Assembly: GCA_021521415.1 (NCBI GenBank)
Contig: JAIQDT010005806.1
Span: forward strand, 62,001 to 126,000
DNA length: 64,000 nt
Direction: 5' to 3'
Origin: Bidens hawaiensis
Taxonomy: Eukaryota > Streptophyta > Magnoliopsida > Asterales > Asteraceae
The notes beneath the pieces were generated by a model. It ran no database searches. It saw only the letters and a list, made by a program, of their open reading frames with translations, and was not told the origin of the DNA. The translations under genes and the position numbers were made by a program. Shown here piece by piece: positions 5,802-34,249 of this stretch. The first letter of the stretch is position 1; the number at the start of each line of letters is the position of its first letter.

Positions 5802-6217
5802 TGTAGGTTCCTAGCCGGATCTACACGAGATATCGCGTACTACGCAGGTGCGGAATCCCTACGTAAGACGTTACGAGTATAGAAAACAATACGGTTAACA
5901 CACGATAATCAAACACGTTGTATACCAACCTTAAACACGTGATACGAAGATCACTTGATTACAGACTCTCTCTGACTCGAATACACGAAAACTCGTAAAC
6001 TGTTAACTAATCTATATCGAATAAGCCGTAAATAAAACCTTATATAATCACGACAACTTCGCCTGGCATGTTCAGGCGAAGTTGTCACTAACTTCGCTTG
6101 TCTAACAAGTTCGCCCATATCAGCGAACTTGTTAGCAACTTCGCTTATACAAAACATAAAACATTACAAACACGATTACAGACACTAGACACTGAACTAC
6201 TGACATCAGCACCAACA
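5802..6217 (-). repeat. Element A 3' LTR (416 bp)
   Basis: On the minus strand it runs from TGTTGGTG to GGAACCTACA. It carries two consecutive perfect hairpins and a TATA-like TATATAA (6041-6047). It differs from the 5' LTR at two bases plus one missing base near 6208. Confidence 0.95.
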
Positions 6218-6233
6218 GACTCCCCCTTGGCAG
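6218..6233 (-). other. Element A polypurine tract
   Basis: On the minus strand the sequence just before the 3' LTR is GCCAAGGGGGAGTC, the usual plus-strand primer of copia elements. It is identical in element B at 20571-20584. Confidence 0.9.
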
Positions 6234-6288
6234 TAGCTTCATCTCTTTAGCTTCAAACACGTGTCCTGTAATCTTCAACCTTGTATCT

Positions 6289-9180
6289 TCACGCATGCAC
6301 TCCTTCTCGAACACAAACAGACACAACCCTTTGATATTTCCTCGCTTCGTCCTTCCAAGCAGGAATATAAAAGATTTTCTTCTCATTGAGCACCTGCAGA
6401 TCAGCTTGCGATAAGTTTACCAAATGCATCGGATCGTAAACTCTTAGCACCTCTTGTTCATCCTCGTCTTCCATCACTGCCTCAGCTGTCTCACAATCTA
6501 CAAACCACCACTTTAGGTCTTTAAGCACATCCTTGGGCATAAGCTTCATCGGTACTTCTTTCAAACACCGGATCGGTTTATACTTCATAACCATCCAAGG
6601 TTTTCCATCAGCTCTCAAACCTCTATCATTGTCTTCAACAAGCTTTCCCTTTTGTGGTTTTAACAGCTCAAATTTCTTCTCTTTTATACTTTCTTTCCAA
6701 ACAATTTTCCCAATAACTCTAGCCATATTATCGTCACTTCGATTGATTAACCCCAATCTGGCTAAGTCTTTCACTTCACATTCCGGCAGTGTATTCAACG
6801 ATCTTAACAGTCTTTTAAAATACTGAATACCGTCATACCTTTTAATCACGAAGAGCCTCAACTGCTCATCATAGATCCAGCAAATAATCCCTTTCTTCGC
6901 TTCAGCATAGCCTTTAATGTTGTAACTCTTCTTAAACATCGTAGGAACCGCCGGTTTCTTCGTTTTGACGAACCACTGAGCATAGCTTTCTTTCCATCTA
7001 GGCTGCTCTTCCCATTCAGACTCATCACTTGCCATCTCTTTACTCATATCGGCTTTCTCAACATCTGGAATGTCATGCTCCACATTCTCTTTTACTATCT
7101 CTCCCTCTTCAATCTCATAATCAATCACAATATCTTCTCCAATCTTCTCTATCACATCACTCGGTAGAATATCATCATCACCAACCAAACCATCATCCAT
7201 CTCCTCTACGTCCACCACCACCACATCATCACCACCAGCTGCAGTTGTCGACTCCCCCTGAGTTGTGGAAGTCCCAAGAGCTTGATCAGTTCTTGGTAGC
7301 TCACCACCTGCATCTTTCGACGCATTGGGATCATCGTCTCTATCATTCCTTCTCTTCGTCCTCAACTCGTCGCCTTTACAGCTCGTCTCCCCCTGAGATG
7401 CCAAGAACTCCTTCAGAGCATCTATGATCTTTCCATGTTCTACCAGCAGGGACGACTGCATCTGATTCTCTGCAACTAGGCGTTGAATAGCCTGGGTCTG
7501 GATAAGATTCACCCTTGATTGTTCTGCCACGACCCGTTCAAGTGCTGCTATTCGTTCTGAGTCTGATAGGGTTGCATCGAAATCGAACCTCATATGCGAT
7601 AACTCGTGAGTGTACTGAGGAGGGATTTCCGATGTCACAGGGACCTCAGAAGTAGAAATAGACGTAACCGCAGGTGGTATCGTCATTGATAACCCTGCAG
7701 TGCCCACAACAGTTGACTCTATAAATTGTGCCACGACCTCCGATGGAGTAACGGTCGGAGGCGGCAATGAAACTATTTCCGGAGCCGAAAGTTGGAAAGT
7801 AGTGGGTGGGAGTCCAAAAGTAGATGAAGTAGCCACTACGGGAACACCCGTAGCGCTTGGCCTTGTAACCTGTAGTGATGAGGGAACCATTGTCATACCG
7901 GATAGTGCTGGTGGAGTGAAACGTACCACCCTAGAGCTCTCACCGGCTCCTGATCCTGCACCTATCCGTTCCCTTCTTGACCTCCTTATCAACTGTTGTA
8001 CCTCTTCCTCATAGTCTGACTCGTCATCATCATCTGTTCTCTTTCTTTTCCCATGTAGTCTTTCTCGAGTCACCATAATCCTTCTCGCCTCTGCCACTTC
8101 ATCATCTGAATCAGAACCAGCCGCCATAGCAGCTGTCCTAGTAACATGCACAGTCGAGGCACGTTCAACTGGGACCTGAACGTTCTCCTCTGGATCCACC
8201 CGATCCATATCAAAGAAGCCTTGACCACCAAATTCTGCATCAAGGTCCACGTTCTCCTCCGGTGACACAACAGGAGCAGCAGGTATAGCTTGAGGTGCTC
8301 CTGCCTGTTGTGGTGCCGGGTCCCTAAACTCATCCCCACGAGCAGGCACATACCCCGGGTTGATTAAGTACCCAAAGAGTGGAGTATGGCGAGGACGAAG
8401 CTCAGTTTTTCTCCTCGCACTGGAGGATCGACACTGGGCGAAGATCCGTTTGTTCACACTCTCTACATATCGGATCGGACGGCGCTGAGGAAGTGTTGGA
8501 GCAACATGATTTAAGATCATTTGAAGGAATCTTGGATACATGATGAACCGCTCACGCGCCATCGCTCTTCGTTGACGATCAATCTCGTAAAAGACCATCT
8601 GACTAAAGCTGAATCGCTTGTTGTAAGTCAGAGCAGTCATCGCTGACTGCATGGTCGCGCCCATGCCATCAGTGCCCGCCTTTCTCCCTGACATGCATAC
8701 TATCATAACATGCATGAGAAAGCGCCACTGGTCAAGCAGAAATCCCTTCCTTCTCTGCGAATCCCCCAAGGGACCAGAATAACCCATCCTCAAAAATGCT
8801 CCATCGCGGAAAGGAGCTACAAACTCTGTAGGGTCATCCATTGTCTCGTTTCCAAACCGCAGAGCCGCCCGGATATGTTCAGAAGAGAACTGAACAAGTT
8901 GATTGTTTACTGTTGCTCGCATCACCGGGGGTTCGACTCTACAGTCGTATTCCACGGTCTGCCAGAAATCCTCAATGTTGGGTAAGGATATCGGCAGAGT
9001 TGTTGTAATGGCGTGGAATATCCTCGAGCGTAAAAGGAATGTGATGATTTCGCGGAAATCATCAACTCTGCTCGCTTCCGGGTCTAAGGTGATATACATG
9101 TTGTGACCCGGGAAGAACTGTCTTTGTTGATCACCTCCGTCATCACCGCCTGCACCACCTGCTCCAGCAACAGCAGCCAT
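6289..9180 (-). CDS. ORF3 of element A, intact 963-residue protein of unknown function
   Basis: The frame is uninterrupted from ATG at 9180. Residues about 25-250 form a helical globular domain with W-R-F-L-M-H, CMSGRKAGT and MYPRFLQMI motifs. Residues about 280-520 are acidic and Pro/Ser/Thr rich. A short coiled coil follows (SERIAALERVVAEQ onward), then an acidic stretch and a C-terminal domain (about 720-960) with a W-Y-D ... IKRYDG-QYFKR core. The first and last domains recur in element C's ORF3. I see no signal peptide, membrane segment, zinc finger or enzyme motif, so it is not an obvious envelope. Similar proteins appear in plant annotations as synaptobrevin/longin-like, which I think is a misnomer (from memory). 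A splice-acceptor-like signal ends two bases before the ATG. Confidence 0.85.
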   Translation of the reverse strand: MAAVAGAGGAGGDDGGDQQRQFFPGHNMYITLDPEASRVDDFREIITFLLRSRIFHAITTTLPISLPNIEDFWQTVEYDCRVEPPVMRATVNNQLVQFSSEHIRAALRFGNETMDDPTEFVAPFRDGAFLRMGYSGPLGDSQRRKGFLLDQWRFLMHVMIVCMSGRKAGTDGMGATMQSAMTALTYNKRFSFSQMVFYEIDRQRRAMARERFIMYPRFLQMILNHVAPTLPQRRPIRYVESVNKRIFAQCRSSSARRKTELRPRHTPLFGYLINPGYVPARGDEFRDPAPQQAGAPQAIPAAPVVSPEENVDLDAEFGGQGFFDMDRVDPEENVQVPVERASTVHVTRTAAMAAGSDSDDEVAEARRIMVTRERLHGKRKRTDDDDESDYEEEVQQLIRRSRRERIGAGSGAGESSRVVRFTPPALSGMTMVPSSLQVTRPSATGVPVVATSSTFGLPPTTFQLSAPEIVSLPPPTVTPSEVVAQFIESTVVGTAGLSMTIPPAVTSISTSEVPVTSEIPPQYTHELSHMRFDFDATLSDSERIAALERVVAEQSRVNLIQTQAIQRLVAENQMQSSLLVEHGKIIDALKEFLASQGETSCKGDELRTKRRNDRDDDPNASKDAGGELPRTDQALGTSTTQGESTTAAGGDDVVVVDVEEMDDGLVGDDDILPSDVIEKIGEDIVIDYEIEEGEIVKENVEHDIPDVEKADMSKEMASDESEWEEQPRWKESYAQWFVKTKKPAVPTMFKKSYNIKGYAEAKKGIICWIYDEQLRLFVIKRYDGIQYFKRLLRSLNTLPECEVKDLARLGLINRSDDNMARVIGKIVWKESIKEKKFELLKPQKGKLVEDNDRGLRADGKPWMVMKYKPIRCLKEVPMKLMPKDVLKDLKWWFVDCETAEAVMEDEDEQEVLRVYDPMHLVNLSQADLQVLNEKKIFYIPAWKDEARKYQRVVSVCVREGVHA

Positions 9181-10578
9181 ATCTGCAACAAACAGGTTAA
9201 GTTAGATAAACTTCAAAGCGAATCACAAGTTCGCCTGTTACCATGAGCGAAGTTGTGATCTATTATGTACAGGCGAAGTTAAAGGTGGGGCGAAGTTGGG
9301 AAACAACTTCGCTTCAACTTGAACTTCGTCTGATAACTGTTATGTAAAATGGTCCAGGCGAAGTTACGGATAACTTCGCCTAATCACAACATCGCCTCAT
9401 AAACTGTTTCAAAATCAATAATTCGGCGAAGTTAAACCTCAGGCGAAGTTACGGATAACTTCGCCTAAACTGTAACTTCGCCGAATCCGAATCGGCAACA
9501 GTTAGGATTTTGAACGACGTGTAGATGATGATTTCGGAGATCGAGGACTCCGAAATACATGATTTTATGAAGTTTTAGACGTTCATGCAAATTACTATCA
9601 CGTAATATCAAGTTTGAAATTCGGGTGTTTAGGTTTCAAATAATCGAGGTCACGAAACGGGTCGTATCGACCTGTGATTAACATTAAAGACAATGACTAT
9701 ACGAATATAGAACCCTACACACCTTGAATCGACAATGAAATCGAGAAAGAAACACAGATTGATTGATGAAATAGAATCGATAAGTTCGCTGAAATATCGG
9801 AGGATAAGTTCGCTGGTTTTGAAAATTGTGAAACTGTTTGACCTTAAAACTTCTTTATATAGGGCCACAGATGTATCGGCGAAGTTGTGGATAACTTCGC
9901 CTATAAGGCGAAGTTATGCATAACTTCGCTGATATTAAAATTTTTCAAAACAAACCCCATAAATTGAACAATTTGCAATTAAGTTTTAAAACATCCTTTA
10001 AAGCGTTAAATGAAACGATCAAGACCAAGTAACCAGGTATAAAATCAAACAATTACAAAAGTAACAAAAATTTGAAAAAATTAAAGTACACGGGATCAAA
10101 TTTCAGTCTCGACAGGGACTACCATGTTTTAGAAAAGATCCGAACAGGAATCATACTAATTTCGTGACTGTCACACAGATCCGTGTTCAGCTGTATTATG
10201 ACATAAAGAAACAGGTTGTAAGCAGGTAATCTACTTAAAATGGTTTTCATCGTTTCTGTGATACGAGTTAGGTTCAATTAAGCTCAAAACTTAAGTGGGC
10301 AACAACTCAGAGATTATGATGCCTCCTATCTATTCTCAAGGCGTATTTGGCTTTCCCCAAGTCACCCCGAATTGACCTCGACCCGTAGTGTCTGATTAAT
10401 TAGTAATTACTCTTCGATCTTAGACTCTGCTTCCCGTTCACCTTCTTGTGTCTTGATTGATAATCATTATCATTATGAACTCTAGAAATTTTTTTTTTTT
10501 TTTAATCTAACATGTATATACACAACTTCAAGTAGAAAATAACTGCAAGTCCCGAATCTGGATCACTGCAGTGTCTTG
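9181..10578 (-). other. Element A spacer between pol and ORF3, with motif arrays and acceptor-like site
   Basis: Non-coding. Closest to ORF3 is a branch-like CTAAC (9201-9205) and CAG ending at 9183. The block 9207-9495 holds about ten exact GCGAAGTT/AACTTCGC 8-mers, many as facing pairs, and 9878-9932 holds four more. From 9990 to 10580 the sequence matches element B's spacer (4920-5550), including the 30-base match to element C's LTR end at 10541-10575. The hairpin module present in B is absent here because of the deletion at pol's end. Confidence 0.8.
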
Positions 10579-13449
10579 TCACGCTATCTTCACGGGAATC
10601 AGAACACTCACGGGCTCGTGTATGCTCGTGTACCACAACCCCAGCTTCGGTTTGCCCTTGAGATACCGCAGTATCCTCTTCGCACCCTTCAAATGAGATT
10701 CTATTGGGTTTGCCTGAAAGCGTGCACAAAGACAAACAGCAAACATTATATCAGGCCTAGAAGCAGTTAAGTACATTAAAGAACCTATAATAGCCCGGTA
10801 TTGGGTTGGGTCCACGTCTGCATCATTGTCTGAATCAGCACCCAATTTGTGATTGACGCAGACTCGAGTATCATATGGAGTGCTGTCCTCCATCTTGAAG
10901 CGTTTGAGAACATCATGGACATACTTCGTCTGATGAATGAACATCCCGTCTTTCTTCTGATCAACCTGCAATCCTAAAAAGAAAGTTAGTTCACCCATAG
11001 CACTCATTTCAAATCTCTTCTTCATGACGGCCTCAAACTCCTGACACATGGCGACCTTTGATGCAACAAAGATAATGTCGTCCACGTAGACTTGCACCAG
11101 CAGAAAGTCGCTTCCTTTTCTCTTGAAGAACAACGTGCTATCAATCTTACCTCTTTCAAACTCATTCTCAAGCAAGTAATCTGATAAGGTTGAATACCAG
11201 GCACGAGGTGCCTGATGTAGTCCATACAGCGCTTTACTTAGCTTGTACACGTGATCGGGAAAGTCAGGGTCAGGAAAACCCGGAGGTTGCTCAACGTACA
11301 CAACCTCATCGACTTTACCATTTAGGAACGCGCTCTTCACATCCAACTGAAAAACCTTCATCTCCTTATGAGCAGCAAATGCCAAAAACAGCCGAATGGC
11401 TTCCAATCTTGCCACAGGAGCAAACACCTCATTGTAATCAATCCCCTCTTGTTGATTAAAGCCTTTAACAACCAGCCTCGCCTTGTTCCTGATAACAACC
11501 CCTTTCTCATCTCTCTTACATTTGAAGACCCACTTCGTGCCAATCGCATGCACATTTCTTGGTTTTTCAACCAAATTCCATACTTCCATTTTCTTAAACT
11601 GAGCTAACTCTTCTTGCATGGCTTCGACCCACGAGCTGTCCTTAAGAGCCATTTGATAGTTCTTTGGTTAAATCTGGCTGATGAAGCAGGTGTACAAGCA
11701 TTCGTTGATAATGCCCGTGTCTTTAATGCTTGTGTAAACACAGGTGTGCTCATTCACGCTTTTTCTTGTTTGTACACCGGCGGACAGATCACCTATCACA
11801 TTCTCCAACGGGTGATTTTTGTGAATTCTCGTAGTCGGAACCGAACTGACATTTAGATTATCTTCCAAGTTCGAAGATAGCTCATCCATGGTTGATTGAT
11901 GTTGAAAGTGAAACGGATTGATGAATTCCTCTTCAGTAGAGGCAGCAGGGGTATTGACAGCATTTGACGAGGAAGGCTGACATTCATCATACTGTGGTCG
12001 TTGCACCAAAGTGTCTTCCTCATCGCATATCATCTTCGTAGCAATTCTTTCCTCAACTTCTACAAAATCCAAATAAGGTATGTTAAAAGATTTAAAGAGT
12101 CTATCATAGTCGAAAACCCCAGAGGGTCCCGTGCTTGGTTTTGGTCATTTGTAACTTGTGATATCAGTGTTACACACCACCTCAACCTTGCTGTTCGATG
12201 TATTGAAGACCCGTCTGTTGGGAGTCCCAACAACGTATCCGACTAAGATTCCTTCGTCGGCTACTTCACCAAATTTTGAATTGGTCTTTAATATCGAACA
12301 CGGGGACCCGAATGGTTCAAGACCACTCAAGTTGGGCTTTCTCCCATGCATTAGTTCATAACAGGTTTTATTTAATCTTTTAACAGTTAACACTCTATTA
12401 AGGATATAACAGGCTGTTGCAACAGCTTCAGCCCAAAACACCACAGGAAGTTGCGAATCAGCCAGCATGGTTCTGGCTCCTTCAATTAAAGTTCTGTTCT
12501 TCCTCTCAGCCACTCCATTTTGTTGCGGAGTATACGGTGCGCTGTATTGGTGTTCAATCCCCTTCTGTAGGCAGGAGATCTCTATCTGATAGTTCTTGAA
12601 CTCAGTCCCATTGTCGCTCCTGATGTATTTAACTCTTTTTCCCATAATGTTCTCAACTTTGGTAATCAAATTTATTACCATCTGAACAGTTTCATCCTTC
12701 GACTTCAGGAAATATACCCACGAGTATCGAGAAAAATCATCAGTAATCACCAAGCAGTACGATGTTCCTCCTAGACTTTTTACATTCACGGGACCGAAGA
12801 GATCCATATGAAGTAATTCTAGGGTACTGACAATTGAATTGACCTTCTTGGTGTGATGGGATTTCTTGTGTTGCTTTCCTTTCTTGCATGATAAGCATTT
12901 GTCTTCGAAGTTGAAATTCTTCAAGGGAACCCCCAACACAAGCCCATTTTTGACAAGGTAGTTCATCTTACGAAGATGAATGTGCCCCATTCTCCTATGC
13001 CATAATTCGGACTCTGATTCAGTCGCTTTCGACAAAAGACACGATTCTTCAGTGGCCATTTCAGTAGACCTCATATCCATGATATACGTATTCTTCACTC
13101 TTGGAGCCTTCATAACAATCCAGTCCTCTGGTATCTTAAAACCAGGATACAACACTATCGCCTCATTCTTCGTGAAATGCACGGTATAATCCTTGTCACA
13201 GATCTGCGAAACACTCAGCAGATTGTGCTTCAATTCTTCAACAAAGTTAACTTTCTCTAGCGTCATCTTCCCGTTAGTCACAATCCCAATTCCTGTGATC
13301 TTTCCACCGCTCTCTCCTGCGAAACTCACTCTACCACCTTGAACAGGTTTCCAGTCTTGTAACAATTTCTTGTTACCCGTCATGTGCCGGGAACAGCCGC
13401 TATCCACAACCCATTGATTGTTGGCAGCCCTGTTCAACTGTTCCTGCAC
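10579..13449 (-). pseudogene. Element A pol: protease, integrase, reverse transcriptase; RNase H deleted
   Basis: A single frame on the minus strand covers the protease site (VVDSGCSRHMTG), the HHCC finger, the integrase core (MDLFGP, RSDNGTEF, NGVAERKNRT), the integrase C-terminal part that B has lost, then RT with YVDDIIF. It is broken by TGA at 12145-12147 and TAA at 11668-11670 only. After [13 protein letters not shown] it runs directly into spacer sequence (position 10620, equivalent to B 4906), so all of RNase H is missing. A copy without RNase H cannot complete its own reverse transcription; see findings. Confidence 0.92.
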
Positions 13450-13521
13450 GATTAAAGCAGAGAGTTAAAATCTGGGGACCCAAGACCGATTGGTCTTGGG
13501 TCGATACATCCCGTACCTTGG

Positions 13522-16047
13522 CTATCCAAAGTTAGTATCATAATCATTTCTGTGAGTCCTAACAGGATACCTTCTTGTGGATTGTCTATGAGGCCATCCA
13601 AACCGTCTTGAATTAAATGAATTATTAGTTATGGTTTGGGTGTTACCAGTGAAAAACTGAGATATATTTCTTTGAAAACCTGGATTAGTCCATTTTCTGA
13701 AATTCGATGGGTTTTCAGTTTTATCATTAAATTGACTACTGTTAGCTCTTTTCTCAGTTTTTAAAGGCCTCACACCTCTGAATTTTTGCTTCAGAGGGCA
13801 ATCAGCAACAAGATGTCCTTGTTGATTACATCTAAAACAACACCTGTTTTCAACTTTCTTATCAAAAGTTGTCTTAGATGTTGAGGCTGTATTACTGCCC
13901 GTTTGTCTCACATATGGTGGGACATACGGGTTTAGTGGAGACTTCTTTTCAGATGTTTTCTTTTTCTCTCCACTCTTTGGTAACACTTCCTCTTGATTTG
14001 TCTCACTCGACTCAGAGGATTTGTCCGAGTTAGATGAGACAGGACTCGGAGCAGAAATCTTAACACTTGCAACAGGCTTACTCACTTCTGGTTCTTTAGC
14101 GGTAACTTGAACTGGAACTGTCTGACATAGTCAACATCGACAGATTTCTGATTACTAGGGTTAAAAGTGTAATTATGATTGAAAGGTGGTGGAACTTCAT
14201 GATAACCAATTCCTCCCCTTTTTGGGGAACCTTGATCACTAACGAGGTGATCAAGTATAGCGGAGGAATTTCTGAATTGCTCCAGTTTCCTGTTAAGTTC
14301 CACCACTTTTACCTGGTGATCAGCTATCTGTTTTTCTCTTTCAGCTATTAGTTTGGTTTTTTCTTCTAGAACCTCATAGCTAAGATCAATCATTTTAATT
14401 TTTTCAGCAAGCTTTGCTTTAAGACTTTTAATATCTGTTTCACTAGCTTTAATTTTTACTTTGTAACTATTTTCTCTAGCTTTAGTGAAATGATGATCTT
14501 CTTTTAAAGTTTTATATTGCGCATCCAAACTAACAAACTGATCAGTTAGAGTTGTCAGTTGTTCAGACAGATGTTCACACTTAGTACAAGGAAGTTCGGT
14601 ACTTACCTCGGAGAGCTGGTCTGCTGCATCTGCCATGTACGCTTCATTTTCGCCAGTTCCTTTCTCACTATCTGCATTTTCGATGTTTGCCAAGTTGGCC
14701 TGTTCAAATACTTCTTCAACATGCAGATTCCAGTTGTACTCTTCGTTCTGTCTGGAAATCATGGCTCTATAGTCATTACCACTACCACTTTGCTGTGTAG
14801 ATCTGTTCTGACTGCGTTCTACACGTTCATTCTTGCATTCTTTTGCAAAGTGGCCATTCTGCTGACAGTTGTAGCAGCGAACCTTCGTCTTATCAAACCC
14901 TGGCCTCTCACCGACAAACTTCCTGCCAGTCTTCTTCATGAACCTCTTTACCCTTCTCACTATCATGGTCATCTGCCACTGCAAATCCATCTCCTCCAGA
15001 TCATCAGCGTCGATCTGGTCATAGTCTTCATCCAAAACTGCAGGATCAACGATCTTACCCTGAATGTAGTTCTCATACGAAGCAATAAAAGATGCATAGA
15101 GAGCAAACTGCTGTTCAGCAGATTTGACACTCATGGGCATCTTCGAGTAGTTGTTGTTTGAAACACTTGGGGAATAACTACTCTTGGTCGCTTGAGGTTG
15201 AGAAGCATTTGACCCTCCAGCTACATAGCACACATCACCGTTCATGTTGAGAGATACATGTCCCTCATGTGTTGAGCTCGCGCCTGACTCTCCCTTAGAG
15301 TAATAAGCAGATGATTCAGTTTTCGAACTTGATCCTGAGTTAACCTTTGCCCCATACATACCCGGATCTTGAACCTGATCGGTAGGTGTCTCCTTTTATA
15401 CCATGTTCAGTTCAAACGTTCTTAGCTTGTTAACTGCTATCTCAAGGTCATAGTCAGCAAAGTCTTTATCTTCTCTCATCAACACTGTATACATCTCCCA
15501 ATTTGGTGGGAGAGCATCAAGAAGCTTCTCAACAATCTCATCTTCTTTGTATTGCAATTGAATAGTTGCTGAGTTCAGTCATCAGATGATAATATCTAGT
15601 GATGATATCATCAAGTGATTCATTTTTCAGATACTTGAAGACCGAGAATTGGGTTTTTAGAAGTTTAATCTTCGAAGCACGTATTCCCACATTGCCCTCA
15701 AAACGGTTTTCAAGAGCTTCCCAAAGTTCTCTAGCAGTCTTATACTTTCTGAAAGTGTGCAAAATCTCTTGTGGAAGAGCCATTGTAATTGCTGCATGAG
15801 CTTTGCTTTCGGCTTCATACATTTTCTTCTCTTCATCTTCCATCTCTTTGTACTTCTTGATCTGATCACGACCTTCATACTCAGTAGTAGGTGGAATGTA
15901 ACCATCTTGTATACACACCCACATCTTGGCATCTTGATACTTGACATATTGTTCAAAACGATCTTTCCACGCTACATAATCCGTTTTCTTAAGCATCTTG
16001 GGTGCCTTTGTAGTCTTTACCAGTTCAGTAATGTTTATCGAAGACAT
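13522..16047 (-). pseudogene. Element A gag, two zinc knuckles, frameshifted
   Basis: The first true ATG is at 16047 (MSSINITELVKT). The N-terminal UBN2/copia-type capsid region covers about 16047-15410 with a frameshift near 15555 and a TAA near 15397. Next come an acidic stretch, a first CCHC knuckle (CYNCQQNGHFAKEC, near 14890), a long coiled coil (about 14290-14600), the GIGYHEVPPP motif, a frameshift near 14085, and a second CCHC knuckle (CFRCNQQGHLVADC, near 13830). A TAG closes the frame at 13522. In the undamaged parental frame gag and pol would be in register, with only a stop between them near 13456. Confidence 0.88.
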
Positions 16048-16545
16048 CTTTCTCAAAACTCAAAGAAATCCGAAAATCAAAAATTTTATTTTCAAACAGC
16101 TCTGTAGGCGAAGTTGTGGATAACTTCGCTTAAAGTTTAACTTCGCGTGAATTTGTAACGTCGCTCACTTTCTTAAATTCGCCGGATTGGCGAAGTTGAG
16201 AATAACTTCGCTTAAGTTGGGCGAACTTGGAAGGTAGGCGAAGTTGTAGGTAACTTCGCTTGAGGTAAGCGAACTTGAAAAGGTAGGCGAAGTTGTGGAT
16301 AACTTCGCTTAACCTTATATCTTCGCCGAAACCCTAGTAACAGTGACGGCAACTTCGCCTGATGAACACGAAGTTTCTGCAGATTAGATTTCTGGGTTTT
16401 TCGAGGTTTGTGAAGGTGTTATGGGTTGTTTAAGCTTGTAGGAGATGAGTATGACACAAAAACTCAGAAAACTCGTCCCGCGAATAGTCGAACAGAACGA
16501 TTTCTATACCCGCGTGATAATCCCGAACCACACAATCGAGCAAAT
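16048..16545 (-). other. Element A 5' leader with GCGAAGTT array
   Basis: Lies between the primer site and the gag ATG. Region 16105-16350 has about ten exact GCGAAGTT or AACTTCGC 8-mers plus variants such as GCGAACTT, many as inverted pairs separated by a few bases. No reading frame of note. Confidence 0.8.
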
Positions 16546-16557
16546 GCTCTGATACCA
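16546..16557 (-). other. Element A primer-binding site (initiator tRNA-Met type)
   Basis: Two bases after the 5' LTR, the minus strand reads TGGTATCAGAGC, the standard plant copia primer site complementary to the 3' end of initiator methionine tRNA. Element C has the same site at the same spacing. Confidence 0.95.
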
Positions 16558-16559
16558 AT

Positions 16560-16976
16560 TGTAGGTTCCCAGCCGGATCTACACGAGATATCGCGTACTA
16601 CGCAGGTGCGGAATCCCTACGTAAGACGTTACGAGTATAGAAAACAATACGGTTAACACACGATAATCAAACACGTTGTATACCAACCTTAAACACGTGA
16701 TACGAAGATCACTTGATTACAGACTCTCTCTGACTCGAATACACGAAAACTCGTAAACTGTTAACTAATCTATATCGAATAAGCCGTAAACAAAACCTTA
16801 TATAATCACGACAACTTCGCCTGGCATGTTCAGGCGAAGTTGTCACTAACTTCGCTTGTCTAACAAGTTCGCCCATATCAGCGAACTTGTTAGCAACTTC
16901 GCTTATACAAAACATAAAACATTACAAACACGATTACAGACACTAGACACTGAACTACTGACATCATGCACCAACA
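16560..16976 (-). repeat. Element A 5' LTR (417 bp) with promoter
   Basis: Minus strand TGTTGGTGC to CCTACA. TATA-like TATATAA is at 16799-16805. Upstream of it on the minus strand are hairpin 1 (arms 16810-16823 and 16831-16844, 14 bp perfect, 7-base loop) and hairpin 2 (arms 16860-16872 and 16881-16893, 13 bp). A third hairpin near the LTR's 3' end carries the loop ATTCCGCA. Confidence 0.95.
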
Positions 16977-17519
16977 ATTTCTAATCCGTTTAAAGGTGTG
17001 TAGGATAATCGAATCGATTGTTCATGTTCATTAACGTTTATCATCGGTCGATTCGACCCGTTTCACGTCCTCGTTTTTTGAACCCTTAACAACCGATTTT
17101 CAAACGTATCTTTACGTGTTCTTAATCAAATTAATCGTATAGATCATCTTAAAACCTGGTTTTCCGAAATCCGTAAGCTCAAAATTGACCAAATCACGTC
17201 GTTCGATAAACCTAACTGATGCCGTTTCATATTCGGCGAAGTTACAGTTTAGGCGAAGTTATCTGTAACTTCGCCTGATAATTATTTTTGAAACAGTTTA
17301 TGAGGCAATGTTGTGGTTAGGCGAAGTTACCATTAACTTCGCATGGACCTTTTTACTTAACAGTTAACAGATGAAGTTAAAGTTGAAGCGAAGTTGTTTC
17401 CCAACTTCGCCCCACCTTTAACTTCGCCTATACAAAATATATCACAACTTCGCTCATGGTAGCAGTCGAACTTGTGATTTGCGTTGACGTGTATCTAACT
17501 TAGTCTGTTTGATGCATAT
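16977..17519 (+). other. Element B spacer, right part, with GCGAAGTT array
   Basis: Begins with the second ATTTC copy (16977-16981). Motif array at 17230-17460, matching the array upstream of ORF3 in element A. A branch-like CTAAC sits at 17495-17499, but the following acceptor CAG found in A and C is changed here to CAT just before the ORF3 ATG. Confidence 0.85.
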
Positions 17520-20504
17520 ATGGCTGCTGTAGGTGGTGCAGGCGGAGATGACGGTGGTGATAACCAGAGACAGTTCTTCCCGGGTCACAACATGTATATA
17601 ACATTAGACCCGGAGGCGAGCGGAGTTGATGATTTCCGCGAAATCATCACATTCTTACTATGCTCGCGTATATTCCACGCGATTACGACAACACTGCCAA
17701 TATCCTTACCAAACATTGAGGATTTTTGGCAGACCGTGGAATATGACTGTAGGGTCGAGCCCCCGGTGATGCGCGCAACAGTCAACAATCACATTGTTCA
17801 GTTCTCATCTGAACAGATCCGGGCGGCATTACGTTTTGGAGATGAGACGAGGGATGACCCGACAGATTTTGTGGCTCCTTTCCGTGATGGAGCATTTCTA
17901 AGGATGGGATACTCTGGTCCCTTGGGAGATACCCAGAGAAGGAAGGGGTTCTTACTTGACCAGTGGCGCTTTCTCATGCATGTCATGATTGTATGCATGT
18001 CAGGGAGAAAGGCGGGCACTTATGGCATGGGCGCGACCATGCAGTCGGCGATGACTGCTCTGACTTATAATAAGCGTTACAGCTTTAGTCAGATGGTCTT
18101 CTACGAGATCGATCGACAAAGAAGAGCGGTGGCGCGTGAGAGATTTATCATGTATCCAAGATTTCTCCAAATGATCTTGAATCATGTTGCTCCAACGCTA
18201 CCTCAGCGCCGACCAATCCGATACGTAGAAAGTGTGAGCAAAAGGATCTTTGCCCAATGCAGATCCTCCAGTGCGAGGAGCAAACCTGAGCTCCGTCCTC
18301 GACATACTCCACTATTCGGGTACTTGATCCACCCGGGGTATGTGCCTGCTCGAGGGGACGAGTTTCGGGACCTGGCACCACAACAGGCAGTAGCACCTCA
18401 AGCTATACCTGCTGCTCCTGTTGTGTCACCGGAGGAGAACGTTGACCTTGACGCAGAGTTTGGCGGTCAAGGATTTTTTGACATGGAGAAGGTTGATCCA
18501 GAGGAGATTGTGCAAGTCTCTGTTGCACATGTTTCGGGTGTGAATGTTACTAGGGCAGCTACAACGGTGGCTGGCTCAGATTCTGATGATGAAGTGGCCG
18601 AAGCAAGACGGATTTTGGTAACACATGAACGGACTCATGGGAAAAGGAAGAGAACTGATGATGATAGCGAGTCCGACTATGAAGAAGAAGTTCAACAGTT
18701 GATTCGCAGATCAAGAAGGGAACGGGCAGGTGCAGGATCGGGAGCTGGTGAGAGCTCGAGGGTGGTACTTTTCACCCCACCCGCACTGTCCGGTATGACA
18801 ATGGTTCCCTCAACATTACAAGTTACGAGGCCAAGCGCCACGGATGTTCCCGTGGTGGCTACCTCATCTGTCTTTGGCCTCCCACCAACTACTTTCCAAC
18901 TTTCGGCTCTGGAAATCATATCGTTGCCACCTCCAACTCTTACTCCAACGGAGTTCGTGGCACATTTTATTGAGTCGACGGTTGTGGCCACTGCAGGGTT
19001 ATCGGTGACGATACCACCTGCGGTTACGTCTTTGCCTACTTCTGAGGTCCCGGTTACATCGGAAATCCCTCCTCAGTACACTCAAGATATATCACATCTG
19101 AGGTTTGATTTCGATGCAACCTTATCAGATTCAGAACGAATAGCAACACTTGAACGGGTCGTGGCAGAACAGTCAAGGATTAATCTTATCTAGACCCAGG
19201 CTATTCAACGCCTAGTTACAGAGAATCAGATGCAGTCGTCCCTGCTGGTAGAACATGGAAAAATCATAGATGCTTTGAAGGAGTTCTTGGCATCTCAGAG
19301 GGAGACGAGCTGTAAAGGCGATGAGTTGAGGACGAAGAAGCGCAATGATAGAGACGATGATCCCAATGCATCGAAAGGTGCAGGTGGTGAGTTGCCAAGA
19401 ACTGTACAAGCTCTTGGGACTTCCACAACTCAGGGGGAGTCGACAACTGCAGCTGGTGGTGATGATGTGGTGGTAGTGGAGGTTGAGGAGATGGATGATG
19501 AGTTCATAGGTGATGATGATGTATTACCGGTTGAAGAAATAGAGAAGATTGGAGAAGAGATTGTTATTGATGATGATATAGAAGAGGGAGAGATAGTAGA
19601 AGAAAATGTAGAGCATGAGATTCTGGAAGTAGATGACGCAGATATGAGTCAAGAGATTGGGAATGATGAGACTGAATGGGAAGAGCAGCCTAGATGGAAA
19701 GAAGGCTATGCTCAGTGGTTCGTCAAAACGAAGAAACCATCGGTCCCTACAATGTTTAAGAAGAGTTACAACATTAGAGGTTATGCTGAAGCGAGAAAGG
19801 GGATTATTTGCTAGATATATGATGAGCAGTTGAGGCTCTTTGTGATTAAGAGAATGTTTAAGAAGAGTTACAACATTAGAGGCTATGCTGAAGCGAGAAA
19901 GGGGGTTATTTGCTGGATATATGATGAGCAGTTGAGGCTCTTTGTGATTAAGAGATATGATGGCGTTCAGTACTTCAAAAGAATGTTGAGATCGTTGAAC
20001 ACATTGCCAGAATGTGAAGTGAAAGACTTAGCCAGATTGGGATTGATAAATCGAAGTGATGATAATATGGCTAGAGTCATCGGGAAGATAGTATGGAAGG
20101 AGAGTATAAAGGAAAAGAAGTTTGAGCTGCTGAAACCACAGAAGGGAAAACTTATCGAAGATAAAGATAGAGGGTTGAGAGCAGATGGCAAGCCTTGGAT
20201 GATTATAAAGTATAAACCGATCCGGTGTTTGAAAGAAGTGCCGATGAAACAAATGCCCAAGGATGTGCTCAAAGAGTTGAAGTGGTGGTATGTAGATTGT
20301 GAGACAGCTGAAGCAGTGATAGAAGACGAAGATGAACAAGAGCTGCTGAGAGTCTATGATCCGATGCATCTAGTGAACCTGTCTCGAGCTGATCTGCAGG
20401 TGCTGAATAAGAAGAAAATCTTTTATATTCCTGCTTGGAAAGACGAAGCGGGGAAATATCAAAGAGTTGTTTCGGTATGTGTACGAGAAGGAGTGAATGC
20501 TTAA
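17520..20504 (+). pseudogene. ORF3 of element B, two stops and an in-frame duplication
   Basis: Homologue of element A's ORF3 across its length (MAAVGGAG start, CMSGRKAGT and MYPRFLQMI motifs, acidic middle, C-terminal W-Y-D domain). The frame is broken by TAG at 19191-19193 inside the coiled coil and by a TAG at 19812-19814 that falls in the first copy of a 102-bp tandem duplication. The ending, through PAWKDEAGKYQRVVSV, is intact. A short deletion in the first residues removes the Ala-Gly-Gly run seen in A. Confidence 0.9.
19752..19955 (+). repeat. 102-bp tandem duplication within ORF3 of element B
   Basis: 19752-19853 is repeated at 19854-19955 with a few differences. The unit is 34 codons long, so the frame is kept. 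The first copy carries a TAG where the second has TGG. Confidence 0.95.
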
Positions 20505-20570
20505 AGATGAAGATTCAAGATTGTTGAAGATTACAAGACACGTGCTTGAAGATAAAGAGATGAAGCTACT

Positions 20571-20584
20571 GCCAAGGGGGAGTC
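20571..20584 (+). other. Element B polypurine tract
   Basis: GCCAAGGGGGAGTC directly before the 3' LTR; same as in element A. Confidence 0.9.
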
Positions 20585-21007
20585 TGTTGGTGCATGATGT
20601 CAGTAGTTCAGTGTCAAGTGTCTGTAATCGAGTTTGTTAGATTTGTGTTTTTGTATGTAAGCGAAGTTAGCTCACAAGTTCGCTGATACAGGCGAACTTG
20701 TGAACTAAACGAAGTTAGGGACAACTTCGCCTGAACATGCCAGGCGAAGTTGTCGTGATATATATTGATTAGGTTACGGCTTAATCAATAAGAAGTTTAA
20801 TTATTCGAGTTTACGAGTCAGAGAGTCCTGTAATCAGTGATCATCGTATCACGTGTTTAAGGTTTCAATATAACGAGTATTTGTTTATTGTAACGTGTGT
20901 TCGATCGTGTTAACTCGTATCATCTTCTACGCTCGTAACGTCTTACGTAGGGATTCCGCACCTACGTAGAACGAGATATCTCGTGTAGATCCGGTTGGGA
21001 ACCTACA
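20585..21007 (+). repeat. Element B 3' LTR (423 bp)
   Basis: TGTTGGTG to GAACCTACA. Recognisably the same as element A's LTR but with many differences. Hairpin 2 (20672-20683 with 20692-20703) and hairpin 1 (20720-20733 with 20741-20754) are retained, hairpin 2 with a paired base change. U5 hairpin: TACGTAGG (20944-20951) with CCTACGTA (20961-20968). Confidence 0.93.
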
Positions 21008-24269: not shown

Positions 24270-24646
24270 TGTTTTGGGCCTACTTTTGTGGTTTGAGCTT
24301 GTTTATATTTATTTCTTTGTATTTGGGCTTGGGTTTTGGGTATGCATGTAAACCGAGAACACTTATGTGTTCTCGGTGGGCTTGGTGTTGTTTGGGCCGG
24401 CCACTGATTGTTATCCCTATATATAGAGGTGTGATGTATAGGGTTATGGTTGTTCATTCTCATTATTGTCAAGTATTGTAAGTGCTTAAGCACCTGATGT
24501 ATTCTAATATATACGTGTGTTTTGAAGCAATTCCGCGCTGGTTTACTTGTTACTATTCGTGTTCTTGAATCACCGAGGATTGGTATTCCGCACCAATACT
24601 CGTTTGGTTGATATCATATTGTAGTGATCCAGATCCGGGACTTACA
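24270..24646 (+). repeat. Element C 5' LTR (377 bp) with promoter
   Basis: TGTTTTGGGCC to GGGACTTACA. A perfect 11-bp hairpin, ACCGAGAACAC (24352-24362) with GTGTTCTCGGT (24367-24377), lies 40 bases upstream of a TATA-like TATATATAG (24418-24426). A second hairpin near the end, ATTGGT (24579-24584) with ACCAAT (24592-24597), holds the loop ATTCCGC. Confidence 0.93.
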
Positions 24647-24660: not shown

Positions 24661-25276
24661 CTTTGACGAATTCAGGCTTGTTATTGTGATATCAACGGAT
24701 TCAAGATATCAAGTTTGGGTAGTTCTTATTGATTCCGGCGAAAGTGTGATCGGAGAAGAGGAAGTCTTATTTTTGGTTTGGATTGGATTCAATCTGGAAA
24801 CAAATCAAATTCCCTATTTTTCGAAAGTTTGTTACATCAAAATCTGGAAGGTTTAGGGATCTCGGCCAAAATCATCTTCTTGCTAAGTATAGTTTTCGGC
24901 TGTTCTTAGTTCTCGGCTGCTCTTAGTTCTCGGCTTCACCCTGTTCTCGGCTAGCACTGTGTTCTGTCAAGATCAGTTTTCGGCCAAAGAGTGTTCTCGG
25001 TCTTTTGATCTGGTCAACATACCTAGTTTTCGGTCAAACAGCTTATCCATACTTTGAGTTCTCGGTCAAAGGTGGTTTTCGGTCAAAGAACTGGTCAACG
25101 TTGGTGTTTTCGGTCAACATTTGTTTTCGGTCAAAGAATTAATCAACCTTCTTGGTTCTTGGTTTACGTATCTCAGTGTATTCAACCCAGACTGTTTGTT
25201 TGGGCTTTGCTTTCTTGGACTTATTAATTGGACCTAAAGTAAATCAGTAACAGTTTTGATACGGCCCAGTTAACAA
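24661..25276 (+). other. Element C 5' leader with TTCTCGG/TTTTCGG array
   Basis: Between 24858 and 25135 I count about twelve copies of T(T/C)(T/C)TCGG followed by C or T, often as TTTTCGGTCAA, all in the same orientation. The same heptamer forms the LTR hairpin arm. No frame of note. Confidence 0.8.
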
Positions 25277-28295: not shown

Positions 28296-28303
28296 TCCCT
28301 CGT

Positions 28304-31300
28304 TTTGTGCAGGGACAGCTATGGAGGAATATCATCAGACCTTGGTATGTTGATAGTGGCTGTTCCAGGCACATGACAGGAGACATCACCCAACTACACA
28401 ACATTCAAACATTTAATGGTGGGTATATGTCCTTTGCGGGAGGAGAGAAATGAAAAATCACTCAAAAGGGTACTGTAAGTAACGGTGTGTTAAAATTTGA
28501 AAATGTTAATTTTGTTCCAGAATTGAAGCACAGTCTTTTATGTGTGTCGCAAATCTGTGACAAAGATTTTTCAACTCATTTTACTAAAAAGGAGTGCTTA
28601 ATTCTGAAATTGGGTATAATCATACCAGAAGAATGGATTCTTGTTCGATCACAACGAAAAGATAATGCTTACGTGATCGACATGAACCAAAATGTTCCCG
28701 ACGAAATTACATGCTTGTTTTCAAAAGTGTCGGAACATAATGCGATGCTTTGGCATCGTCGGCTTGGTCATGCTAATATTAAAAATCTAAATCGTCTTGT
28801 TTAAAACAATTTAGTGCGTGGTTTACCTATCAAAGATTTTGTGACTGTTGAAAAATGTGTGGCTTGCGATTTGGGAAAACATCATCGAAAATCTCATAAG
28901 CCTAAGTTAATTAATACCATCTCATCAGTCTTTCAGTTACTTCATATGGACCTCTTTGGGCCGGTTCATGTGTTAAGCTTGTCTCGCAGCTCTTATTGTC
29001 TAGTTATTACTGATGACTACTCACGTTTTACATGGGTATTTTTCTTGTCAAATAAGGGCGAAACTGCAGATCTGATCAAGAAATTTGTGGTATTAATGGA
29101 GAATCAACTGAACCTAAAGCTGAAAGGAATCAGGTGTGACAATTGGACGGAATTCAAGAATGCAGTTCTGAATCATTTTTACTCAGAAAAGGGGGTGCTT
29201 CGTCAGTACAGTGCTCCGCGGACGCCTCAACAAAATGGTGTCGCTGAAAGAAGAAACAGAACTTTCATCGAAGCAGCAAGAACGATGTTATGTGACTCTA
29301 AATTGCCACTGTTTTTCTGGGCTGAAGCCATTAATACGGCTTGTTACGTTCAGAACCGGGTGATAATCAACAAGTCAAAGATGAAGACTCCGTATGAGAT
29401 TGTTTATAGTCATCAACCCACTGTCGCACATTTCAGAGCTTTCGGGTGTCCATGCACATTGCTGAATCTAGAAACCACTCCAAAGTTTGGGGCCGCAGCA
29501 GATGAGTGTTATTTCGTTGGATATGCCGGTAATACAGCCTACAGGATTTACAACAAGTCTACCAAACAGATTATAGAGTCCTTTGAAGTTCGTTGGTTAG
29601 AAGAAAATGAAACTGATGCCCGTGTTGGTCCTGATTGGCTATTCGACTACAATGAATTCTTCAAGCCTTTTAATGTGGTTCCAGTCATCATCACCGACTC
29701 TCAAGGTGGTTCCACAGTGGAGATCACTCAAGACAACTCTCAATCATCATATTTCTCCGTCACTGGATGATGAGGTTATTGAGATGACTAGTGTTGCAAC
29801 CACAACCGACAATCAGCCTATCCAATCTTCAGAGACCGATCATTCACAACAAATCTCGTCTGAGAATACTGCAAACGTTGAGGGGGAGAGTTCCGTTCGT
29901 CAGATATTCGGGAGCACATTGTTTCCCGACGCCATTCCAGATGAATACGTTGCCAGCACCTCGTACTCTCACAGTACAGCAACGTCTGGATGGAAAAACC
30001 CCCTTACTGACTCCGGGGAGAACGTAACAAATCTTCAACCTAATTGTGATGTTTCTGATCATTCATTTCCTTCAAGAATTCAAAAGAATCACTTGATTGA
30101 GAACATCATAGGTCCCATTGAAGCGGGTGTGTCCACTAGAAGTCAGACCGGACACATAAACAGTTGTATGTTCTCTTGTTTTATATCTCAAATCGAACCA
30201 AAGAATGTTGAGATGGCTCTTTAAGAACCTAGTTGGGTTGATGCTATGCATAAAGAACTGAATCAGTTTGAGAAGTTGAAGGTAAGGAGATTGGTTAAAT
30301 TGCCAGAAGGAAAGAAAGTTCTTGATACAAGATGGGTTTTTAGGAACAAGCAAGATGACACCGGGGTTATTATTCGTAATAAGGCACGATTGGTAGTTCG
30401 TGGGTTTCACCAGGTTGAAGGGTTAGATTACACCGAAGTCTTTGCTCCAGTAGCTAGGCTTGAGGCCATTAGAATTTTTCCGGCATATGCATCATATATG
30501 GATTTTACAATCTATCAGATGGATGTTAAAACAACGTTTTTGTATGGTGAGGTCAAAGAAGAAATTTATGTCGATCATCCGCCGGGTTTCGTTGACTCTA
30601 AGAAGCCAAATCATGTTTACAAGTTAGACAAGGCTCTGTACGGGCTACATCAGGCTCCACGGGCGTGGTATGCTACACTGACCACGCACCTACTTGACCA
30701 CGGATACAAGCGGGGAACGATTGATCAAACTCTGTTCTGGAAAACTGTAGGAAAATATTTGATTCTGGTTCAGATTTATGTTGACGACATCATTTTCGGT
30801 TCCACCAGTGCTGACTTGTGCAAAGAATTTGAAGGCGTTATGAAGAAAAGATTTGAGATGAGTTCGTTGGGTGAAATGACAACATTTCTGGGGTTACAGG
30901 TTCGCCAAAGTCCAACGGGTATTCTGTTCAATCAAGGAAAGTACGTTGAAGATATGCTGGCTAAGTTTGAGCTTCAAGATTGCCAGAGTGCTAATACTCC
31001 AATGGTTGAAAGACCGCTTTTGTCATCTGATCCTGAAGGGAATCCCGTAGATCAGACATACTATCGATCGATGATCGGGTCTCTGATGTATCTCACAGCC
31101 AGTCGTCCCGACATAATGTTCGCATTCTGCCAATGTGCTCGCTTCCAGGCTAATCCTAAACTCTCTCATTTAATTGTTGTTAAACGTATTTTTAGATATC
31201 TGAAGGGACAACCGAAGTTAGGTCTTTGGTATCCCAAGCAATCAGAATTTGATCTTTATGCTTTTGCTGATAGCAATTATGGTGGAGATGACATTGACAG

Positions 31301-31724
31301 GAAATCCACATCAGCTGGCTGCCAGTTTCTCGGAGATCGGCTCATTTCATGGCAGTGTAAGAAACAACAAACAGTGTCTACTTCGACAGCCGAAGCAGAG
31401 TATGTTGCTGCGTCCGCTTGCTGTTCTCAGGTTATCTGGATGCAAAATCAGTTGCTGGATTACGGTTTGGAATTTCTTGACACTCCTATCTTCTGTGATA
31501 ATGATGCAGCCATTGCTATTGTGAAAAACCCAGTCCAACATTCTAAAACCAAGCACATTGATATTAAAATTCATTTTATTCGTGACTTTTTCAATCGAAA
31601 GTTGATTCATCTTGAACAGGTCCACACAGATAATAACGTGGCGGACTTATTTACAAAACCGGTCGGAACAGCAAAATTTAATGTGCTTGTGAGTTTTCTT
31701 AAAATGCTACGGTTTGAGGATTGA
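28304..31724 (+). pseudogene. Element C pol: protease, integrase, RT, RNase H
   Basis: The pol frame (FVQGQLWRN) leads into the protease site YVDSGCSRHMTGD near 28350, then a TGA at about 28451, the HHCC finger (LWHRRLGH ... CVACDLGK), a TAA at 28802-28804, the integrase core (MDLFGP, RCDNWTEF with W where G is usual, NGVAERRNRT), a frame change near 29770, TAA at 30222-30224, then an open RT/RNase H frame to 31724 with [26 protein letters not shown]. The RT/RH half is the best preserved pol segment in C. Confidence 0.9.
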
Positions 31725-31770
31725 GTCTTTTTGGGGATAAATTTGTACTTTTGTTTAGTTTTTGCACAAA

Positions 31771-31781
31771 TTTAGGGGGAG
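31771..31781 (+). other. Internal polypurine-tract-like sequence just after pol (element C)
   Basis: TTTAGGGGGAG lies 47 bases after the RNase H stop, where the true polypurine tract of an ordinary copia element would be. The functional tract of C is 13 kb further on at 44889-44903 (about 5 kb without element D). Confidence 0.5.
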
Positions 31782-31890
31782 AAAAATCAAAAATACAAAA
31801 ATAGTGTGTGTGCGTTGAAAAATCAATCAAAAAGACAAAAATAGTGTGTGCGTTGAAAAATCAAAATGTCAAAAATAGTGTGTGTGTGTT
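31781..31890 (+). repeat. Three tandem 36-38-bp repeats
   Basis: Units at 31781-31816, 31817-31854 and 31855-31890, each GAAAAATCA..., ending ATAGTGTGTG-TGTT or CGTT. They start at the end of the internal polypurine-like tract. Confidence 0.9.
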
Positions 31891-34249
31891 GTCCTTACTA
31901 ATAAAATTTTTTTTGAGTCTTTCAAGATTCATTTTCGCTTAAAATTATGTCGGTTGCTCAAGTTTGAAGGACATATACTTGTATATGGTTGGTCCAGTGT
32001 TCTACTTGTAGTTTCACAGGATAGCCATTTACCTAATGACTGAAATCACCCAGGGCGATTATGATATGTTTTTTTGTGTTTCGTTCACTTTCACTTAAAA
32101 TTATGTCGGTAACTCTGAGTTGGAAGGACATGTGTTTTCATGCATGTTTGGTCCAGTTAACCACTTGTGGTTACAACGGATAGCCATTAACCTGAAAGCT
32201 TATAGTAACCAGGGTGACTGAATGCTTAACACGTGTGTTTTACCTAAATCTCTGGGAAATGATATCACTGTTCAGTTAACAGCTTTTAGAAGCATCAAAA
32301 ATATTTTCAAATGAAAATTGATCCAACCTTTGGAAAATGATAGATAAATTGTTTTTGTGTGCCTAACGGGTGAAGTTATTAAGCTTAAAAGGCCCTGGAA
32401 CAGTCATTGATATTGTATGGTAGCTTTCCATGATGCGTAAAAGTTAAAGTGATATAAACTAAATTTGCTAAACTTAATGTGGAGGATCATTTTGAAGACA
32501 GGTGCATGTCTCCAAATACATCTCTCCGAATGATAGGCAGAAAGGAAATTACCCAGTCATACACGAGCCCATTAGTGTCTTGATCCCAAAAAAAAAATTG
32601 TGCTATTACAGTTATTATTATTATTATTTAAAAAAAAAGAAGAGTTATTTATGAGTTACTTATCTACTATTAAGTTATTTTCTATAAAGGCTTAAAGGGA
32701 CAAACTAGAACTATAGAGATGGGGGCACACAAGTAAGTCATGTCATGTCTCGAATGAAAGGTTTGTCAGTTTACTGGCACTAGATCCAACGTTCAACCTT
32801 AAAGCCTAAAATTTTGCGTTCATAAAAGCTTTTGATCAAGCACTAGGGGGTTGGAGTCAAATTGGGGTGATCTGGGGAAAGCCTAATACGCTTTGAAAAT
32901 AGATAGGAGGCACCACAGGTCCATGAGTGATGTCCATCTAAGCTTTATGCCGAACTGAACCCTAATCATATCACTGATACAATGAAAATCATGCTAAGCA
33001 TGTTATACATGCTATCAACCTGTCTCTTTGCGTCATAATAATGCTGAACATGAATCCTTGTGGCAGCCTCTTAAACAATACGATTCCATGTTCGGATCTT
33101 TTCATAAAAGGGCGGCAGTTTTACGAAGAACTGAAATTTGATCCCGACGGTAAAAATAAAGGGAGTTGTTTTCTGGTGAAGATAATTTTTTTATTATTTT
33201 TATCTTGCTTATTTTGTGTGTCATGTCTTATATTGTTTTTCCTCGAAATTACTCTCCTCGGAACGTTTGTATAAACCTTTTCTTAAAACTTGGGTTTTGA
33301 ATGATTTGAACATCAAAAATGGATCTTGAATCCAGTTGGGCTGGTACATGAGTTTTCGGCTCACCTTGAGCCCACAAAGAGTTTTCGGCCCGGCCCGCTA
33401 AGTTTGATATAAATACTTTAAGGAATTACTTTTTCCACTTTCATTATCTTTTATATCTAAAAAAAAAGAAAAAACTCTCTCTGCCGAGATCTCATAATTT
33501 TGCTTTGGCCGAGATCCTCTTTCATAATACTCTTTCACTAATCAAAGATTCTAGTTTGCGTGTGTGACTAGCAGGTACTGGACCAGGATCTATGAAATCT
33601 GAATATCACTAAGGCTTACTTTGGTGTTAGATGAGGCTACTGTAACTCGATTTGATATGTCAAAAGTGGATTCTTGATTACTTAGGATTTTCGGTGGATT
33701 TATTAGGGTTAATTAAGGGTTTTCGGTTGATCTTAACCAGGTTGTTGCAGGTTTAATGGTGTTTCAGGGATCTCGGTGGGATTGAAGGGGATTGCTCGTT
33801 TCCCGAGGAGGAATCCCAAAGGGTTTTCTGTTTACAGCTGCGATGGAGTTCTTGGTTGACTTTCGTTGACCGAGAACTCCCTATCATGACAGAAAAATCT
33901 CGTTCTCGGCCAAGTCCTATCGAGAACCCTTGTTCCTAGTTAAGCACTGACCGAGAACCCCCTTCATGGCAGAAAACTTTGTTTTCGGCCAAATCGTGAC
34001 CGAGAACCATTATTCTCGGTTAAATTGTTGACAGAGAACTTATTTTTGACCGAGATCCCCCCTGCCTGGCCCATATTCTCACTGTTTGGGCCCAGATTCT
34101 CATTGTGGTTCATTATTGGGCCTCTCCAACGTAACCTGGACCGCCACAGAAGTTCTTTAAAGCCCATCATGCCTAATAATCCTTGTTAATTTTAAATCAT
34201 GGTTAAAACGTTTATTATTTCTATCTAACTTGCTAAGTTTGGTGCAGAT
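31891..34249 (+). other. Element C spacer between pol and ORF3
   Basis: Non-coding. It contains the tandem two-hairpin module (31930-32225), blocks alignable with element B's spacer (32310-32580, 32830-33160), and from 33350 to 34070 about fourteen copies of TTCTCGG/TTTTCGG or its reverse complement CCGAGAA/CCGAGAT in both orientations. It ends with CTATCTAAC and TGCAG ATATGG, an acceptor-like site before the ORF3 ATG. Confidence 0.8.
31930..32225 (+). ncRNA. Tandem two-hairpin RNA-like module in spacer (element C)
   Basis: Two copies 157 bases apart. Copy 1: hairpin a 31969-31995 (CATATAC with GTATATG inside GGAC/GGTCC), hairpin b CTAC/GTAG at 32002-32011, then GGATAGCCATTTACC. Copy 2: hairpin a 32126-32154 (weaker, ACATG/CATGT), hairpin b AACCAC/GTGGTT at 32159-32172, then GGATAGCCATTAACC. 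Same order and flanks as in element B with different stem sequences. Confidence 0.6.

Follow-up and report, generated by a model that had tools for sequence, protein, structure and literature searches.

Why do two families of copia retrotransposons in the same genome place different short motifs at the same positions of their elements? The question is raised by a 64,000-nt stretch of Bidens hawaiensis contig JAIQDT010005806.1 (parent assembly 3.47 Gb), referred to as a whole as the window, in which we compared elements A and B, which share one motif, with element C, which carries another. A first-pass annotation of this DNA had noticed that both families have their motif in a promoter hairpin of the long terminal repeat (LTR), in the 5' leader and upstream of a third open reading frame (ORF3), and had proposed a recognition system co-evolving within each family. 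We find that this arrangement is conserved and forms a double promoter module; its kind has been published before, but some details of its architecture are new, and there is a first structural hint of a VANC-like mechanism. The elements are placed as follows.

1-5801 and 16977-21007: element B, split by A, with its 5' end beyond the window
5802-16976, minus strand: element A, a defective Sirevirus-type copia copy nested in B; LTR pair 99.3% identical
24272-45278, plus strand: element C
36577-44634: element D, a second copia, which sits in C ORF3 and interrupts it

Motif arrays at gag-pol and at ORF3

Motifs were counted on both strands and compared with 300 dinucleotide shuffles, using GCGAASTT for A/B and CCGARAWC for C. 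In A, the motif occurs 6 times in the LTR, 12 times in the leader and 17 times in the linker between pol and ORF3 (shuffled means 0.03, 0.09 and 0.11). The B LTR has 5 copies, and its linker 7 to the left and 9 to the right of the A insertion. The C motif is found twice in the LTR, 12 times in the leader and 12 times in the linker (shuffled means 0.02, 0.16 and 0.19). With counts far above the shuffles in A and C, the common layout holds. The 10 to 12 leader repeats announced earlier are matched by both 12s, but for A/B the statement applies to A only, because the 5' end of B lies outside the window. The linker counts likewise agree with the proposed 14 or so, but an internal TATA-like box lies amid the copies, which form sub-clusters and not a single block.

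In coding DNA, no motifs had been noticed. GCGAASTT is indeed absent from gag-pol and ORF3 of both A and B, which is chance level since the shuffled means are only 0.12-0.22; CCGARAWC is absent from C gag-pol (shuffled mean 0.63) but occurs once in C ORF3 (0.21). In a blind test of each region's commonest 7-mer against 200 shuffles, the A LTR, A leader, A linker, B LTR and C leader were flagged (p 0.025 or less), and the C LTR (p 0.295), C linker (0.085) and the LTRs of D (0.995) and of a further element, E (0.065), were not.

With one LTR counted, an element carries 35 A-type or 26 C-type sites. Aligned with their flanks, these give the half-site YARGCGAASTTR for A, in which the flanks are preferred and not fixed letters, and GWTYTCGGY for C. 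To call the two motifs unrelated, as was done at first, is too strong, since they share a CGA/TCG core and the C half-site GTTTTCGG is identical to one half of the Osr9 RM box from rice (Table 3 of Bousios et al. 2010, PMC2829016).

The perfect 11- to 14-bp hairpins upstream of the LTR TATA box were confirmed on reading the sequence: the arms measure 14 bp in A and 11 bp in C, and the final motif ends 8 bp and 41 bp before TATA, respectively. A similar order of parts recurs at ORF3.

16813-16902, minus: A 5'LTR array, 6 motifs including the 14-bp hairpin; TATATAAG begins 8 bp past the final motif
16108-16358, minus: A leader array, 12 motifs between the primer-binding site (PBS) and the gag ATG
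9879-9929, minus: A ORF3 promoter (candidate), two GCGAAGTT-N6-AACTTCGC dyads
9853-9862, minus: A internal TATA-like box CTATATAAAG, ~17 bp past the last dyad
9782-9813, minus: motif pair GCGAACTT, 24 bp apart, in the predicted first exon of A ORF3
9183-9722, minus: predicted intron in the 5' untranslated region (5'UTR) of A ORF3 (AAG/GTGTGT ... TTGCAG/ATATG), motif array 9227-9481
6289-9180, minus: A ORF3, 963 aa, open; N-domain modelled
5593-5767, plus: B ORF3 promoter dyads (candidate), TATA-like CTATATAAAG at 5662-5671, first-exon motifs
17236-17453, plus: B array ahead of ORF3, beyond the A insertion, matching the intron position
20585-21007, plus: B 3'LTR, motif array 20661-20751
24272-24646, plus: C 5'LTR, 375 bp, hairpin motif pair 24353-24376, TATATATA at 24418
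24858-25130, plus: C leader array, 12 motifs in a single orientation, gaps 17 or 31-34 bp
33352-33415, plus: C ORF3 promoter (candidate), two GTTTTCGG motifs, TATAAATA at 33408-33415
33484-33516, plus: motif pair CCGAGATC, 25 bp apart, in the predicted first exon of C ORF3
33575-34247, plus: predicted C ORF3 5'UTR intron (CAG/GTACTG ... GTGCAG/ATATG), motif array 33719-34057
34250-36576, plus: 5' part of C ORF3, frames broken, followed by D
44904-45278, plus: C 3'LTR, identical hairpin at 44985-45008, target-site duplication (TSD) ATTTG directly after

Counted from the start of each element, the parts line up in the following way.

A, gag: LTR motif 156, TATA 172, array 618-861, ATG 929
A, ORF3: motif 7090, TATA ~7115, pair 7163/7187, array 7495-7742, ATG 7796
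C, gag: LTR motif 101, TATA 150, array 590-855, ATG 1009
C, ORF3: motifs 9084 and 9113, TATA 9140, pair 9216/9241, array 9451-9782, ATG 9982

The ORF3 arrays of A and C are predicted to lie inside a 5'UTR intron; the A donor sequence is present in 9/10 and the acceptor in 8/10 linker pieces of other A-family copies. By strict TATA patterns, 11 of 26 C copies have such a box and a motif at most 90 bp upstream of it, and the other 15 do not. Bousios et al. suspected an internal promoter that they could not conclusively identify, and the two-fold module with its TATA-like box at ORF3 is a candidate for it.

The spacing of the copies is regular as well. The A motifs mostly form convergent pairs at 14 bp, which enclose 6-nt loops, and same-strand pairs at 17 bp, while the C leader proceeds in one orientation by steps of 17 or ~33 bp (two of six windows aimed at the leader in other C copies reached it). 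Convergent pairs at 12 bp are frequent in the C intron array (25 pairs in 26 copies), where the 17-bp step was not seen. Linkers between 17-bp-spaced motifs vary in letters, with length and motif constant, and the step common to A and the C leader fits either a protein of a single architecture on the DNA or an inherited repeat unit.

Motif conservation in other genomic copies

The enrichment recurs beyond the window. We chose 10 A-family copies from LTR pairs among 40 scored matches (2,667 candidates); their LTR and leader pieces hold 15-18 motifs in 10/10 cases and their linker pieces 16-17 in 8/10, the exceptions being L128 (7) and L130 (23), whose linker seems to contain an insertion. For C-type ORF3, we took 30 of 128 scored loci and 15 of another 113, from more than 43,000 candidates each and with some places counted twice, and 41 of these 45 loci have 4-15 C motifs within 1.5 kb upstream. 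Of the four exceptions, one is L170 and three (two places) have a nested A-type LTR. The latter had A-type motifs upstream of a C-type ORF3, and the apparent motif swap is accounted for by the nested LTR at about -180. A C LTR at 79-94% identity was present in 17 of 20 downstream regions fetched, 14 of them with two motif matches and three with one.

Between A and B, motif columns are identical in 47/48, 48/48 and 79/80 cases, against 84.5%, 86.0% and 77.4% of the remaining columns. Among the 10 A-family copies, motif and other columns are weakly apart in the LTR (0.992 versus 0.967, P 0.10) and the leader (0.979 versus 0.964, P 0.09) and strongly so in the ORF3 module (0.977 versus 0.873), a comparison covering the six copies in which the slice contains TATATAAAG exactly, with L128 and L130 left out. 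The C set comprised 26 of 30 places, after removal of L136 and L138 for their nested LTR, L155 for foreign sequence upstream and L135 for having only 4 motifs; here, columns counted as motif in three or more copies score 0.859 versus 0.663 and those counted as motif in any copy 0.837 versus 0.665. In these alignments, motif columns are kept better than the rest of their non-coding pieces, as expected if the element needs the motifs.

Four C-type ORF3 copies (L133, L136, L138 and L155) follow each other at 11.7-12.5 kb intervals in G000:C5461:76000-113100, with A-type LTR sequence near three of them; from its sequence, this appears to be a tandem or concatemer-like array.

ORF3 and other features of the elements

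The ORF3 proteins of A and C are 28% identical over 292 aa at the N-terminus (E 5e-26) and only weakly alike at the C-terminus (21%, E 3e-5). They are homologous yet far diverged, which could be the case for a recognition protein that co-evolves with its sites; with two families only, co-evolution of motif and ORF3 is unproven. The modelled N-domain appears to match VANC21 in complex with target DNA in structure, which was unexpected. The named ORF3 relatives found belong to Asteraceae. C ORF3 matches PF20167 (Transposase_32), though below the Pfam cut-off, and 28 of 41 aligned relatives match it too (E up to 1). The aORF of sunflower Athila elements (PMC11728184) also matches PF20167 and has a nuclear localization signal reported for it too, but it lies within a Ty3/gypsy element, and the accessible text describes no motif arrays.

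Copia pol domains, a zinc-knuckle gag and an extra ORF after pol are present in A, B and C, and the polypurine tract (PPT) AGGGGGAG directly precedes each 3'LTR. The Sirevirus 5'LTR junction CA/ATTGG with the PBS TATCAGAGC occurs in A and C (the B 5' end being outside the window). The attachment site is AT/TG in C and TC/TG in A and B; AT/TG is found in 20/21 elements of PMC2829016. Several PPT copies clustered near the 3'LTR are a further Sirevirus criterion; there are three in A, two of them within ORF3, and in C one in the linker besides the terminal one. Element A has TG..CA ends and is flanked by the TSD ATTTC at 5797-5801 and 16977-16981 (read from sequence). It has no counterpart of B 3777-4901, the end of pol and the first part of the linker, the gap falling at window position 10624; since its LTRs are 99.3% identical despite the missing stretch, it is a recently moved defective copy. 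Element E (45938-54330) has an LTR pair (~2 kb, 94.8% identical). The small records NZ_CP115454.1 and NZ_CP115302.1, labelled as plasmids of Kitasatospora and Streptomyces, contain a copia-like reverse transcriptase (33.5% identity, 99% query coverage) that is perhaps eukaryotic sequence.

Two further blocks of the pol-ORF3 linker are shared by B and C. One consists of tandem pairs of ~130-nt units (window 4305-4592 and 31932-32224), the four units having 74% mean column identity, where gag-pol DNA between the families has 64-68%. RNAalifold gives a structure of 29 pairs, of which 9 show compensatory change on both sides (four sequences only), and no Rfam match was obtained at the gathering threshold; the units are possibly an undescribed structured RNA. 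The other block, at 5124-5433 and 32831-33146, is 74% identical.

Candidate binders and a possible role of the module

The layout is not novel. Parallel placement, motif conservation and the modelled VANC21 match speak for the proposed recognition system. RM boxes were described in 13/21 Sireviruses and in none of the classic copia elements compared (PMC2829016); like the motifs here, they are family-specific, multicopy and dyad-type, and they precede both the TATA box of the LTR, directly, and the envelope-like gene. The CGG-CCG palindromic core of RM boxes is missing in A/B, as in the Tnd-1 box of the same paper, and its order is reversed (CCG..CGG) in C, which also has many same-strand copies. 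The LTRs of 375-423 bp are shorter than all in Table 2 of that paper (at least 0.54 kb), and A and C add a leader array, an internal TATA-like box and the 17-bp spacing, none of which was seen in its accessible text.

We propose that the motif copies are binding sites for the element's own ORF3 in a twice-used promoter module with a VANC-like anti-silencing role, a reading to which we assign a probability of about 0.47. The module has one or more motifs directly upstream of TATA and a larger array that begins ~300-450 bp downstream and stops ~45-200 bp before the ATG, and it occurs at gag and again at ORF3. ORF3 protein would occupy the arrays at both promoters and keep them free of silencing marks, so that gag-pol and ORF3 itself would be expressed. 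That some sequence-specific protein binds the copies at the DNA level is probable; that ORF3 is this protein and anti-silencing the outcome is a more tentative step. We would put forward with still greater reserve the general form, in which the envelope-like ORF would be a nuclear, sequence-specific anti-silencing protein of VANC fold, the RM boxes its arrays, and protein and motif would change jointly between families.

The VANC analogy of the first-pass annotation is strengthened by the modelled fold. As in VANC/VANDAL systems (PMC5735166, PMC10398659), short repeats that differ among related families lie in the element's own non-coding DNA, and the protein, here with a predicted fold near VANC21, is element-encoded. 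A difference is that the host element is a copia retrotransposon and not a Mutator-like VANDAL. Weighing against the reading, DUF1985 was not found at the sequence level, either in a Pfam scan of 41 ORF3 relatives or by hhalign profile comparison, and PMC2829016 lists four Sireviruses with RM boxes and no envelope-like gene and mentions six with the gene and no boxes. As to methylation, SIRE elements of sunflower reportedly have a marked CG drop in their central part (PMC12844716).

Host transcription factors might bind instead, the arrays being ordinary enhancer boxes at the LTR and an internal ORF3 promoter, recruited independently per family. The placement upstream of TATA boxes suits this explanation, as does TTGACC, the W-box core, a frequent reading of the C sites. 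The boxes of Sireviruses lacking an envelope-like gene and the reported matches of RM boxes to stress-factor sites (PMC2829016) point the same way. However, the families differ in motif though the host is identical, 35 or 26 sites are carried per element, the arrays reach downstream into the leader and the predicted intron, and the modelled ORF3 fold resembles VANC21. We regard host factors as a serious but rather unlikely answer.

Convergent A pairs with 6-nt loops and the location in the leader would also suit packaging or translation hairpins in RNA bound by Gag, the other binder suggested at first. Gag is made less likely by motifs upstream of TATA boxes and by an ORF3 array that is predicted to be intronic, both of which point to DNA over RNA; the C leader copies, being in a single orientation, form no local hairpins among themselves, and an arm mismatch is retained in three LTR lineages. 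We hold an RNA role to be improbable. Hardly better placed is the idea that the palindromes are mainly targets of the host, with hairpins or tandem repeats that feed small-RNA silencing and do not benefit the element: in maize Sireviruses, small RNAs map preferentially to LTR regions rich in palindromes (PMC5311732), but the motif columns are more conserved than the non-coding sequence around them. If a 17-bp unit had been duplicated neutrally in tandem, both copy number and spacing would follow, and two near-identical neighbouring linkers of the C leader are an example; the other linkers between motifs spaced 17 bp apart have different letters but constant length and motif, the period is common to two families, and A is largely inverted where the C leader is direct, so that we consider it very improbable.

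Our literature search, with most subscription papers outside its scope, recognised no paper tying Sirevirus ORF3 to VANC. The accessible text of PMC2829016 leaves open the function of both the extra gene and the promoter boxes of Sireviruses, a lineage that makes up ~21% of the maize genome (PMC3599292). Binding of the arrays by ORF3 with a VANC-like effect would merge these two questions into one testable prediction. If true, it would account for a retrotransposon lineage escaping silencing, and sequence-specific anti-silencing, a feature of DNA transposons, would be extended to retrotransposons.
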